IMG/VR virus record: IMGVR_UViG_3300040759_000039
Location: 1 to 25,840 of that record
Length of the DNA: 25,840 bases
Direction: 5' to 3' (one strand)
Source: a virus
Shown piece by piece: positions 11,009-15,160 of the stretch (positions are counted from its first letter, which is position 1; each line of letters begins with the position of its first letter). Made by a program: the position numbers and the translations under genes. The notes under the pieces were generated by a model that ran no database searches, was not told the DNA's origin, and saw only the letters and a list, made by a program, of their open reading frames with translations.

Positions 11009-12085
11009 ATGCTTGAAGCGGTCATCGATTATGAATCTCGTTCAAAAGCTGACCTGAAAGCAGTAGGAGCCATTAATTATGCCCGAGATGAATCCACATC
11101 TATTTTCTGTCTTGGATACCGCGTGGCTTGTGGTCCTTATCGGCTCTGGATTCCTGAGCGTGCTCCTATGCCGGAGGCTCTCTGGGCCGTGTTCAAAGCA
11201 GGTATTTTGGTTGCTCATAATGCTTCTTTCGAGCGTGCTATTACTCGTTACACGCTCACTCGTTATCCCCTCTTAACGAGTGAGCAAAAAGAAGTGCTGA
11301 TCCGTATTCCCCCCTCTCGGTGGAGATGTACTGCTGCAAAGGCGGCGATGTGCCATTTGCCACGTAATCTTGAAGAAGCAGCTCAAGCGCTTGGCCTTCC
11401 CGTACAGAAAAACATGGAAGGAAACAGGCTCATTAAAAAATACTCGAAGCCTAGAAAGCCCTCCAAACATAACCCATCACCGTGGTGGACTGATAGGAGC
11501 GACTTAAGAAAGATCTATCGCTACTGCCTCACTGACGTGAAGGCGGAGTATGAGCTTCATATGGCTCTTCCTGATTTATCAGACAGCGAGCAAAAGATTT
11601 GGGAGCTTGATCAAAAGATTAATGACCGGGGTGTTCTCATTGACATTCCAACGGTGAAAATTATTTTGAATTTAATTCGTGAAGAAATGGAAAACATCAC
11701 CCAAGGAGTGAATGAGTTAACGAATGGTGAGATCACCAGCGTTACCCAGACTGCAAAAGTGCTCCAGTGGGTCAATGAGCGCGGCGCTGATATGGAGAAC
11801 CTACAGGCCGCCACCCTTCGGGACAAGCTCATGGAAGACAATTTAAGTGATGAGGTTCGCCAGATGCTGGAATTCCGGCAAGGCGGTTCCAAAACCTCCA
11901 CGGCCAAATATCAGGCTATGCTTGAGGCAGTAGGAGATGACAATCGGGCGCGTGAGCTACTGCTCTATTGTGGTGCGAGTCCCACCGCTCGGTGGAGTGG
12001 AAAGCGCGTGCAACCTCAAAACATGGTAAGGGGCCATTTAAAATTTGAGGATGTAAAGAAAGTGATTCATGCCATCCAAGCTTGA
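11009..12085 (+). CDS. Family A DNA polymerase, N-terminal part (3'-5' exonuclease half)
   Basis: This 358-residue frame holds the proofreading domain: exo I D7/E9 (IDYESRS), exo II VAHNASFERA (68-77) and exo III YCLTDVKAEYEL (172-183). A linker and the start of the polymerase region follow (SPTARWSGKRVQPQNMVRG). It ends at TGA 12083-12085, just before the palm. The rest of the polymerase continues in another frame that starts at ATG 12069, a 17-base overlap. The start ATG is the first possible, because an in-frame TAG lies 12 bases upstream. The ribosome site is weak (GAAAGAAAAA). Either the polymerase works as two subunits, a frameshift joins the halves, or there is a sequence error. Codons look normal and both halves are well conserved. 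Confidence 0.88.
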   Translation: MLEAVIDYESRSKADLKAVGAINYARDESTSIFCLGYRVACGPYRLWIPERAPMPEALWAVFKAGILVAHNASFERAITRYTLTRYPLLTSEQKEVLIRIPPSRWRCTAAKAAMCHLPRNLEEAAQALGLPVQKNMEGNRLIKKYSKPRKPSKHNPSPWWTDRSDLRKIYRYCLTDVKAEYELHMALPDLSDSEQKIWELDQKINDRGVLIDIPTVKIILNLIREEMENITQGVNELTNGEITSVTQTAKVLQWVNERGADMENLQAATLRDKLMEDNLSDEVRQMLEFRQGGSKTSTAKYQAMLEAVGDDNRARELLLYCGASPTARWSGKRVQPQNMVRGHLKFEDVKKVIHAIQA

Positions 12086-13952
12086 GTGGATTAGAAAAAA
12101 CTATGGCGATCCGATGAAAGTGTTCTCGTCTCTCACACGAGGCATGCTCACCCCCTCACCCGGATATGAACTCTTTTGTGCGGACTTTGCAGCGATTGAA
12201 GCGCGTGTTGCTTTTTGGGTGGCGGAGCATGAAGAGGGCGTGAAAGCGTTTCGAGAGAATAGAAAGCTCTATGAAGAGATGGCGGCTCATACGTTCGGGA
12301 TGAATGCTGAGGACGTAAAAAAAGATAGTCTTGAGCGCTTTGTAGGCAAAAGCGCAACGCTCGGATGCCAATATGGTGTTGGCCCTGCCAAGTTTTTAAA
12401 GATGTGTCACCTCCAAGGAATGAAACAAGTCACCGACGATATTGCTAAAAAGGCAGTCTACACCTACCGAAAAGTACACCATCCCATTCCTACATTTTGG
12501 AAAGAAATTGAGGGTGCGGTTGTCTCGGCTATTCTGAATCCTGGTAGCCGTTATAACGTCACCAAGGTGCAAGTGTACATGCATGAGAACTTTCTCAATA
12601 TCAGGCTACCTAGTGGCAGGCGTCTCAGGTATTTCAAGCCTAGAGTTTCTCAGAAGCAGCTAGCCGGTGGCCGAATGGTGCCACAAATTCACCACTGGGC
12701 AGTTGAGCTTCACCAATGGCAAGAAGTGGTGAGCTGGGGAGGGGTATTTACAAATCACTGTTTTTCAGCAGATACTTTGATATTGACAGAGCGTGGAGCG
12801 GTAGCTATTAAAGATATCAAAATTCAAGACCGGATTTTTGACGGCTTTGAATTTGTCCCCCACAGTGGAATTATATGCCAAGGAAAACAAAAAACCGGAA
12901 ACTGGTTAGATATCCGAGTCACGCAAGACCACTTGATTCACGATGGAAACTCATGGCATCCCGTGATGTATTTGGACGAACGTATCACGCAAAAATGCCT
13001 AGACTACGGGCACGCTTTGGTAAACTCACAGTTATCAAATCCTGCGTTGGCAAGTATGCTAAATCCAAGTGTATTTGCGTCTGCGGAAAACAAGTTTGGG
13101 TACTTAATAGATCCCTTTTTAGGGGAGATTCTCGCGCATGCAGGAGTTGTGGTTTCAAAACAGGTGGGCTATCGCGCTCAAAAGCTAAAGGCTATTACCA
13201 AATTATTCCTGACAAAAGCATTAGGCAGATGTGGCTACTCCGATACACCCGAATGGTGGAGCGCTGTCACAATCCCAAACATCCGGCGTTCCACAACTAT
13301 GGAGCAAGAGGCATACGGGTTTTTCCTGCTTGGAGAAAAGATAAAAAATTATTTCTTAAATACGCAAAAACTCTTGAAGGATGGAAAAATTCAACTCTCG
13401 ACTTGGATAGAAAAAATAATTCAAGGGGATATGAGCCCGGCAATATTAGATGTGTCACTCGAAAACAAAATGCACGCAATCGACGAAATACTCGATGGGT
13501 TACCTATCGCTCAAAAAAAATCACTTTTAGTGAATTTTGGGAAACGTATTGCCCTGGCTGGAAAAGCCAAAATGCTATCCTTTGGCATCTTCAAAAAGGA
13601 AAAACAACTAAGCAAATTGTGGCAGTCTACCGGCGAGGAAGAGCGGGTATATGATATTCTAAACTGTGGTCCGCGTAGCCAATTTATTGTGCTTACTCCA
13701 CATGGACCTGTGGTAGCTCATAATTGCGTGCAAGGTATATCCCGTGACTTAATGGCAAACGCCATGATGAACATTGAGAATGCAGGTTATCGGTTTCTTC
13801 TATCTGTTCATGATGAGGGCTTGTCTGAGCATGTGAAAGGCCGTGGAAGTGTTGAGGAATATGTGGGCCTCATGACCCAATTACCGGCTTGGGCTGAGGG
13901 ATGCCCTGTAGTGGCTGAAGGATGGAAAGATGAGAGATACCGCAAAGGTTAA
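12069..13952 (+). CDS. Family A DNA polymerase, palm half, interrupted by an intein
   Basis: This 627-residue frame encodes polymerase motif A (DFAAIEAR, residues 39-46), motif B (RFVGKSATLGCQYG, 90-103) and motif C (VHDE, 580-583). Between B and C, residues 231-552 are an intein. After splicing, TNH joins CVQGISRDL, recreating the helix that other family A polymerases show as 'xN.tQa.aRDl', just before motif C. The mature palm part would be 305 residues. With the exonuclease half this makes about 660, a normal length for this phage polymerase group. The start at ATG 12069 lies inside the end of the exonuclease frame. Full activity would need splicing plus assembly with, or frameshift fusion to, the first half. 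Confidence 0.88.
   Translation: MPSKLEWIRKNYGDPMKVFSSLTRGMLTPSPGYELFCADFAAIEARVAFWVAEHEEGVKAFRENRKLYEEMAAHTFGMNAEDVKKDSLERFVGKSATLGCQYGVGPAKFLKMCHLQGMKQVTDDIAKKAVYTYRKVHHPIPTFWKEIEGAVVSAILNPGSRYNVTKVQVYMHENFLNIRLPSGRRLRYFKPRVSQKQLAGGRMVPQIHHWAVELHQWQEVVSWGGVFTNHCFSADTLILTERGAVAIKDIKIQDRIFDGFEFVPHSGIICQGKQKTGNWLDIRVTQDHLIHDGNSWHPVMYLDERITQKCLDYGHALVNSQLSNPALASMLNPSVFASAENKFGYLIDPFLGEILAHAGVVVSKQVGYRAQKLKAITKLFLTKALGRCGYSDTPEWWSAVTIPNIRRSTTMEQEAYGFFLLGEKIKNYFLNTQKLLKDGKIQLSTWIEKIIQGDMSPAILDVSLENKMHAIDEILDGLPIAQKKSLLVNFGKRIALAGKAKMLSFGIFKKEKQLSKLWQSTGEEERVYDILNCGPRSQFIVLTPHGPVVAHNCVQGISRDLMANAMMNIENAGYRFLLSVHDEGLSEHVKGRGSVEEYVGLMTQLPAWAEGCPVVAEGWKDERYRKG
12759..13724 (+). other. Intein (322 residues) in the DNA polymerase palm
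   Basis: The intein begins with Cys1 at TGT 12759-12761. Block A is CFSADTLILTERGAV, and block B contains RVTQDHLIHDG with T55 and H58 (TxxH). Block F is VYDILNCGPRSQFIVL (297-312), and block G ends VVAHN with H321-N322 followed by Cys+1 at 13725. All residues needed for class 1 protein splicing are present. It sits in a strongly conserved site of the polymerase, typical of inteins. The 220 residues between blocks B and F have no recognisable endonuclease motif in this frame; another frame of the same DNA encodes an HNH endonuclease. Confidence 0.93.
12995..13654 (+). CDS. HNH homing endonuclease encoded out of frame inside the intein
   Basis: This 219-residue product lies in the -1 frame relative to the intein; an earlier ATG at 12875 would add 40 unlikely residues. 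Residues 6-14 (ARFGKLTVI), two cysteine clusters (CICVCG and CRSCG) and RCHNP (90-94) lead to YGARGIRV (102-109). The catalytic region is LDRKN, then GYEPGN with R152, and NARNRR. The C-terminus (RSKKITFSEFW..., then WHLQKGKTTKQIV) matches the DNA-contacting tail of phage HNH homing enzymes. The usual RW after GN.R is RC here. It would cut intein-free polymerase genes and spread the intein. The stop at 13652-13654 falls exactly at block F. How it is translated is unclear. Confidence 0.85.
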   Translation: MPRLRARFGKLTVIKSCVGKYAKSKCICVCGKQVWVLNRSLFRGDSRACRSCGFKTGGLSRSKAKGYYQIIPDKSIRQMWLLRYTRMVERCHNPKHPAFHNYGARGIRVFPAWRKDKKLFLKYAKTLEGWKNSTLDLDRKNNSRGYEPGNIRCVTRKQNARNRRNTRWVTYRSKKITFSEFWETYCPGWKSQNAILWHLQKGKTTKQIVAVYRRGRAGI

Positions 13953-14860: not shown

Positions 14861-15160
14861 ATGAAAATACCAAGAACACACTGTGGCAAGGGGCACGAAT
14901 TCACAGAAAAGAACACGCAAATTTGGATGGGCAAACGCTACTGTCGTACTTGCAATGCAGCGAGAGAATTGAAAAGACGAAGAACTAAAGCGGATGGGCC
15001 AGTCAGATGTCTGAACACCAAGTGCCGTCATTCAAAAGGCTGGCATAGACAAGGAATTGGTGCGTGTTTAGAGTGCGCATGTTTAGGCTACGTAGGTGCC
15101 CCCAACCCCACCATCCTTGGTGAGGCCGGGAGCGTCGTTAGTGGATCAAGTGTGTCGTAG
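14861..15160 (+). CDS. Small zinc-finger protein (HNH-like CxxGH motif)
   Basis: This 99-residue protein starts at ATG 14861 with GAGAGG about six bases upstream. It opens with HCGKGHEFTEKNTQIWMGKR and CRTCNAARELKRRR, a pattern seen in small phage and actinobacterial HNH-like zinc proteins ('C..GHp.t.eNt......R.CrtC'). Two more cysteine pairs follow (CLNTKC and CLECAC). It lacks the full HNH catalytic set, so it is more likely a zinc-binding accessory protein than an active nuclease. It is the last rightward gene. Confidence 0.65.
   Translation: MKIPRTHCGKGHEFTEKNTQIWMGKRYCRTCNAARELKRRRTKADGPVRCLNTKCRHSKGWHRQGIGACLECACLGYVGAPNPTILGEAGSVVSGSSVS

Follow-up and report, generated by a model that had tools for sequence, protein, structure and literature searches.

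Two kinds of mobile intein have been described: those in which splicing and homing domains are fused in frame, and split inteins that have a separate endonuclease gene. Conventional mobile inteins such as PI-SceI carry the Hint blocks A, B, F and G, hold an HNH or LAGLIDADG domain in frame in the slot between blocks B and F, and occupy conserved motifs of replication genes. In the fractured genes that Dassa et al. reportedly described in 2009, a free endonuclease gene lies between the halves of a split intein. Here we analysed IMG/VR virus record IMGVR_UViG_3300040759_000039 (25,840 bases; hereafter the window), in which the DNA polymerase gene polA contains a Hint intein and, in the −1 frame (offset +2) of the same DNA, an HNH-family endonuclease gene. 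Like a conventional mobile intein, this element has all four Hint blocks and an endonuclease in the B–F slot within a conserved part of a replication gene, but its HNH gene is separate and out of frame, with its own start and stop, and the middle of the intein frame is a disordered filler. As in fractured genes, the endonuclease would be translated separately, but the intein is an unbroken polypeptide, and both genes are read from the same, overlapping DNA. We consider it very likely that the locus represents a third layout of a mobile intein, in which a complete, separately translated HNH gene is nested out of frame in the endonuclease slot of a Hint mini-intein.

A partial analogue is known from phage methylases, in which the ShiLan domain and the Pacc40 insertion contain an out-of-frame HNH while the host frame stays open, and for which the authors detected neither intein nor intron splicing elements (Arsenault, Gosselin and Gogarten 2025, PMC11855218). 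Both arrangements place an out-of-frame HNH in an insertion that is open in the frame of the host gene (PMC11855218); however, canonical Hint blocks are present here, and the hosts are PolA, helicases and a resolvase rather than a methylase. The ShiLan HNH stop lies at the very end of the insertion (TAAC, with Asn), and 14 of our offset +2 nests end in TAA from the His-Asn codons of the intein. ShiLan might therefore be a related or degenerate element of nested inteins.

Several database records hold parts of the same layout. Sodalis phage SO-1 (gp38/gp39; L009, offset +2) and APSE-1 (P45/P46; L010, offset +1) have an HNH open reading frame (ORF) overlapping an intein-bearing polA, and their records annotate this ORF without describing a nested intein. 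The jerseyvirus 'intein-containing DNA polymerase precursor' (vB_SenS-Ent2, L004 gp37) belongs to the same intein family with an HNH at +2; its record annotates the splicing domains only and leaves the HNH ORF unannotated. Our literature search, which covered few subscription papers, found no description of out-of-frame nesting as an intein architecture. An earlier note on this DNA suggested that the arrangement may have been overlooked; it has partial precedents, however, as SO-1 and APSE-1 annotate the ORF itself and an analogue exists in ShiLan. The SO-1 record labels the insertion a 'type I self-splicing intron', and HNH genes are common in phage polymerase introns. A group I intron with an HNH gene in it is nevertheless a very improbable reading: neither the window nor the SO-1 polA gives an Rfam group I match, and the insert is open through 322 codons with Hint blocks that model as a Hint fold. 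We rejected the intron for want of Rfam support.

The polA intein and its nested HNH frame

The intein (12759–13724) is a stop-free stretch of 322 amino acids (CFSADTLILTERG...VVAHN), in frame with the 627-amino-acid ORF 12069–13952 and inserted in PolA at the conserved site between ...TNH and CVQGISRD. Its blocks contain Cys1, T55..H58, V297-Y298-D299 and H321-N322 followed by Cys. Block F reads VYDILNCGPRSQFIV, with VYDILNCGPRSQF as its motif in frame, and block G reads HN followed by C. Among 39 aligned inteins, C1, T55, H58, D299, H321 and N322 are invariant and V297 is nearly so, confirming the four blocks that the earlier note had recognised. The sequence thus has the features of a class 1 intein: Cys1, TxxH in block B, blocks F and G, and His-Asn before Cys. 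A profile search against solved inteins in the PDB found a match (E 1.7e-4), and Foldseek with the Hint model returned inteins and Hint domains as its top matches, with a probability of about 1, although with best E-values of only 0.003 to 0.02. In the AlphaFold model, the two Hint halves reach confidence (pLDDT) values of 94–98, the middle is disordered, and the linker falls below 50 at residues 107–214 and most of 216–236. The Hint domain looks competent for splicing, and its excision would restore PolA.

At offset +2 to the intein frame, the HNH frame is open from 12851 to 13651 and closes with TGA at 13652–13654; it contains ATG codons at 12875, 12953 and 12995. The third frame of the intein DNA has 27 stops. 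As the earlier note had observed, the HNH core starts directly past block B, and its stop lies at block F, where it is formed by the Tyr-Asp codons (TAT-GAT). The encoded protein belongs to PHROG 374 'HNH endonuclease' (E = 4.8e-28), a family that has LDR...GYEPGN...N and in which the His of RCHNP is not invariant. Its AlphaFold model has pLDDT >90 for most of residues 41–200, and a fold search of BFVD with this model gave 108 matches at E ≤ 0.001, several of them named HNH or homing endonuclease; the best was an uncharacterised protein of jerseyvirus LPSE1.

Two overlapping frames of this length are not expected by chance. With the HNH protein fixed and its synonymous codons shuffled 20,000 times, the intein frame stayed stop-free in 0.11% of shuffles counted from 12995 and 0.01% counted from 12875, with 4.4 or 5.5 stops expected, respectively. 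The approximation (61/64)^218, by which chance had earlier been called improbable, makes the same point. Among 118 free-standing HNH relatives, the matching frame was open in one case for each offset (L055 and L082); these frames are shorter, contain no recognised Hint blocks and look like chance. Together, the shuffles and the free-standing controls rule out a chance overlap.

Selection on the two frames

Alignment of the same DNA in its two frames gave opposite pictures. Across inteins, the intein frame is conserved in blocks A, B, F and G and unconserved in the middle, whereas the HNH frame has 17 invariant columns. The nearest relative of the window HNH is only about 44% identical, so the codon-position test was run on relatives (32 pairs; dN/dS, the ratio of non-synonymous to synonymous substitution rates, without multiple-hit correction) rather than on the window. 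In the overlap, substitutions at intein codon positions 1, 2 and 3 numbered 466/1549/688 for offset +2 and 821/466/384 for offset +1; that is, they concentrate on the wobble base of the HNH frame, which is intein position 2 in the first class and position 1 in the second. By contrast, the Hint N-block shows the usual third-position pattern (170/132/326 for +2 and 128/84/228 for +1). A dN/dS comparison of both frames on relatives, along the lines that the earlier note had proposed, bore out one half of its reading: dN/dS was 0.23 (+2) and 0.41 (+1) for HNH, but a near-neutral 0.73 and 1.12 for the intein-frame middle.

Stops are nonetheless avoided in the intein frame. The 100 distinct nests described below contain none, against 3.15 (+2) and 5.96 (+1) expected per gene, and the stop count of their third frame is as expected. 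Conservation, substitutions, stop avoidance and the AlphaFold models all agree, and the intein frame over the HNH gene is therefore a tolerated, near-neutral linker that is selected to avoid stops. The HNH frame is the real protein in the overlap, and it is under purifying selection across relatives. The PHROG 93 'endonuclease' model matches residues 171–220 of the intein-frame middle in the window, which suggests that this family may include wrong-frame translations of nested HNH genes.

Recurrence and origin of out-of-frame nests

Searching phage genomes by tblastn with the intein and with the HNH protein returned the same places for both queries. The intein query alone matched in 186 phage records, and IMG/VR scans contributed 240 further loci. 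When single proteins of the window were used for the IMG/VR scans, the HNH gave no match and the intein one truncated copy; the wide intein alignment was too variable to serve as a scan query. Nests were recognised partly by both Hint halves sharing one open frame. N-halves without a C-half were found in only four cases, in long open frames or at a contig end.

HNH-profile classification of all frames in the 125 inteins whose two Hint halves share one open frame, a check that the earlier note had suggested, placed the HNH at +2 in 82, at +1 in 38 and in frame in none; the other five had no HNH. Counted as distinct nests from phage genomes and IMG/VR contigs, 69 out of 100 have the offset of the window (+2), 31 have offset +1, and again none is in frame. 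The +2 class includes EBPR siphovirus 2, Pseudomonas phage MR14, Vibrio phage 97.13, jerseyviruses and dhillonviruses, and the +1 class Shewanella SFCi1, APSE-1, Caulobacter RLK, Gardnerella AB1 and Streptococcus Javan255. Eight bacterial contigs (Paenibacillus, Lachnospiraceae and metagenome-assembled genomes) added seven out-of-frame nests, no in-frame nest and one intein without HNH. The recurrence in other phage PolA genes that the earlier note had suggested is borne out, and extends to SNF2-like and ResIII-like helicases and a Holliday junction resolvase; within PolA, several sites are used. In L113 (3001 and 4333) and L120 (3001 and 4246), two nested inteins, belonging to different frame classes, sit in a single polA. 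The in-frame endonuclease of conventional mobile inteins was not found in any of these inteins. We infer that this is because an intact gene with its own stop fits inside a host frame only out of frame.

The same survey bears on whether two compensating assembly indels pushed an in-frame intein endonuclease out of frame. The HNH does occupy the exact slot of the usual in-frame enzyme, but out-of-frame placement is shared by all of about 107 distinct relatives, which come from many sequencing projects, at two offsets and with no in-frame case, and the intein-frame middle lacks conservation precisely where the HNH frame shows it. Up to 12876, the independent contig L007 agrees with the window at 99.98% identity, although it ends upstream of the HNH core. 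Such an artefact is barely credible and is ruled out by the relatives; neither of the findings that the earlier note had named as damaging to its reading was seen, as no relative has the HNH in frame and neither frame is regularly broken by stops.

A quick tree built from 192 HNH cores gathers the +2 nests in a single group (support 80), within which the window branches deepest; the +1 nests occur at three separate positions. Three or four origins, or changes of frame, are thus suggested, at moderate tree support. A free-standing homologue (L018 3046–3573) lies directly 3′ of an intein-less polA in Salmonella phage MET_P1_122_58. Free-standing PHROG 374/3377 HNH genes of this kind are homologous to the nested ones but are not nested and have stops in the alternate frames; they are a plausible source type of the nested HNH.

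Empty and partly emptied sites bear on mobility. At the jerseyvirus site, polA is uninterrupted in 399 phage records, compared with the 186 records matched by the intein query. Two near-identical phage contigs, L150 and L152, differ by a 531-bp (177-codon) gap (L150 4182–4185, L152 4182–4716), flanked by the four-base repeat ACCG, which deletes the HNH and preserves the intein frame. Phages of Ruminococcus and Streptococcus likewise have relatives of the intein that lack the HNH. As the comparison of L150 with L152 demonstrates, the intein can do without the HNH, and the proposal that both overlapping proteins are needed for intein persistence fails on this point as well as on the near-neutral linker. 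The empty sites and the frame-preserving deletion fit a mobile element.

We consider it probable that mobile phage inteins have repeatedly evolved out-of-frame nesting as a general architecture, with at least three to four HNH settlements, in both shifted frames and several host genes, an in-frame position being excluded by the stop, and with the WDGxEW motif of the +2 class doubling as a Shine-Dalgarno (SD)-like sequence and ATG.

Translation of the nested HNH gene

In the +2 class, the HNH frame usually opens just upstream of intein nucleotide (nt) 93. Nucleotides 93–95 are ATG in 54/67 and GTG in 12/67 distinct inteins. This ATG derives from the Glu-Trp codons (GAA-TGG) of the Hint motif WDGxEW, whose Trp-Asp-Gly codons yield an SD-like GGGAYGG about ten bases 5′ of it. 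The HNH frame is open across Hint block B in 62/65 inteins of this class (13.3 expected), compared with 1/29 in +1 controls, and Glu31 is encoded by GAA, which gives the ATG, in 46/55 (24.8 expected), compared with 8/24 in controls (9.9 expected). Class +1 starts at nt 203, 188 or 146 with SD-like sequences, whose energy is ≤ −5 kcal/mol in 27/30 cases versus 4/23 in other frames. In Gardnerella phage AB1 (L012 3146–3949), the nested HNH has a canonical AAAGGAGGT SD within the Hint coding sequence; the HNH frame of this phage also extends 22 nt beyond the intein into the C-extein.

These patterns point indirectly to internal initiation of the HNH within the intein, the counts coming from related and hence not independent sequences. 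In the window, the earlier note had taken the HNH to span 12995–13654; every motif it named is present, but the beginning of the reading frame probably lies 5′ of 12995, within the block-B region, and the start is likely ATG 12875 or 12995. The protein could also be made as a −1 frameshift fusion from the PolA–Hint frame, given that the window HNH is in the −1 frame and that an in-register slippery heptamer precedes the HNH core in 12/69 class +2 inteins. Yet control registers gave 5/69 and 8/69, with little or no enrichment, the +1 class 1/31, and the +2 HNH frame typically opens just before a conserved ATG that codon choice favours. We therefore regard a frameshift fusion as quite improbable and set programmed −1 frameshifting aside for lack of convincing heptamer enrichment.

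Several observations weigh against the nested, mobile intein proposed here. The window does not have the usual ATG of its class: its motif is FDGFEF, nt 93–95 are ATT (12851–12853), and the SD-like site of the next start, ATG 12875, is weak (−3.3 kcal/mol). In class +2, the SD-like sequence comes from the Hint motif itself, so its energy does not surpass that of the remaining frames in this region. Expression of the HNH in the window is the least certain step of the mechanism. The HNH family gives no clear canonical Pfam HNH match (HNH_3 E 0.34, under the cut-off), Foldseek found no useful PDB match for the HNH model, and a profile search of PDB sequences gave one chance zinc-ribbon match only. 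A degenerate search for the exact empty site of the window found none. Finally, the relatives lack statistical independence, and nested inteins or their HNH had served as queries for the searches. Some of these points would also be expected if the nested HNH were a decaying or silent relic in the window phage and the intein now a vertically inherited mini-intein; the weak SD and the missing usual start codon fit this, as do the HNH-less relatives and the natural deletion, which show dispensability. On the other hand, the window HNH frame is stop-free and retains the invariant motifs and cysteines, and the purifying selection described above acts on this frame across relatives. We consider a relic unlikely.

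Under the preferred reading, a nested and still mobile intein, PolA, Hint and the disordered linker would be translated as one precursor, from which Hint would fold from its two halves and splice itself out, restoring PolA. On the same mRNA, ribosomes would start again within the intein, in this frame class usually at the ATG embedded in WDGxEW, and produce the HNH protein. This protein would then cut intein-less polA alleles, and repair would copy the whole intein, leading to homing.

The features of the locus are listed in Table 1. PolA itself is encoded by two ORFs (11009–12085 and 12069–13952) with a 17-nt overlap just upstream of palm motif A. Together they fit one polymerase family (PHROG 17 positions 674–988, then from 991). 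Contig L007 also spans this overlap region, and a sequencing error at the split is unlikely because this independent contig covers the stretch; the overlap reflects either a split gene or a programmed frameshift. Two more HNH endonuclease-like genes, unrelated to the nested one, are present in the window phage at 2534–3361 (−) and 14861–15160 (+).

Table 1. Features of the polA locus and its nested HNH gene, in window coordinates.
Feature	Position	Strand	Basis
PolA N-terminal part	11009..12085	+	PHROG 17 DNA polymerase model positions 674-988, E 6e-43
PolA C-terminal part, N-extein (palm motif A DFAAIEARV to ...WGGVFTNH)	12069..12758	+	Pfam DNA_pol_A E 1.9e-12; PHROG 17 from position 991
Hint intein, 322 codons, in PolA frame	12759..13724	+	PDB intein profile match E 1.7e-4; Foldseek intein matches
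Intein block A (CFSADTLILTERG), nucleophile Cys1	12759..12797	+	Cys1 invariant in intein alignment
Degenerate Hint motif FDGFEF	12837..12854	+	Counterpart of WDGxEW in other +2 inteins
Putative nested out-of-frame HNH-family endonuclease ORF	12875..13654	+	ATG 12875, alternative ATG 12995, stop TGA 13652-13654; PHROG 374 E 4.8e-28
Intein block B (GNWLDIRVTQDHLIHD; T55xxH58)	12897..12944	+	T55 and H58 invariant
Conserved HNH-family core (FGKLTVI, zinc ribbon, RCHNP, NYGARGI, LDR, GYEPGN, NARN)	12995..13489	+	Profile match 12986-13489; alignments
Intein-frame linker over HNH gene, residues about 96-288	13044..13622	+	Mostly predicted disordered; unconserved between inteins
Zinc-ribbon cysteines CxC...CxxC of HNH protein (C68, C70, C89, C92)	13076..13150	+	Invariant in 46 sequences
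Intein block F (VYDILNCGPRSQFIVLT), Tyr-Asp codons contain HNH stop TGA	13647..13697	+	Sequence and alignment
Intein block G (HGPVVAHN) plus +1 Cys	13701..13727	+	H321 and N322 invariant
PolA C-extein (CVQGISRDLM...RYRKG) with stop	13725..13952	+	PHROG 7766 E 5.1e-33

A third intein layout of this kind would be common in phages, where it would so far have been annotated as 'mini-inteins', a group I intron or one of the two overlapping ORFs; gene callers pick one frame, so that either the polymerase or the endonuclease is lost. Nested inteins would amount to an extensive natural collection of long genes that overlap on one strand in two frames, and the idea of a protein-splicing motif doubling as a start site could be put to the test in them. 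Inteins could acquire an endonuclease by a simple route, the capture of an entire free-standing gene, and many 'endonuclease-less' inteins may still be mobile.

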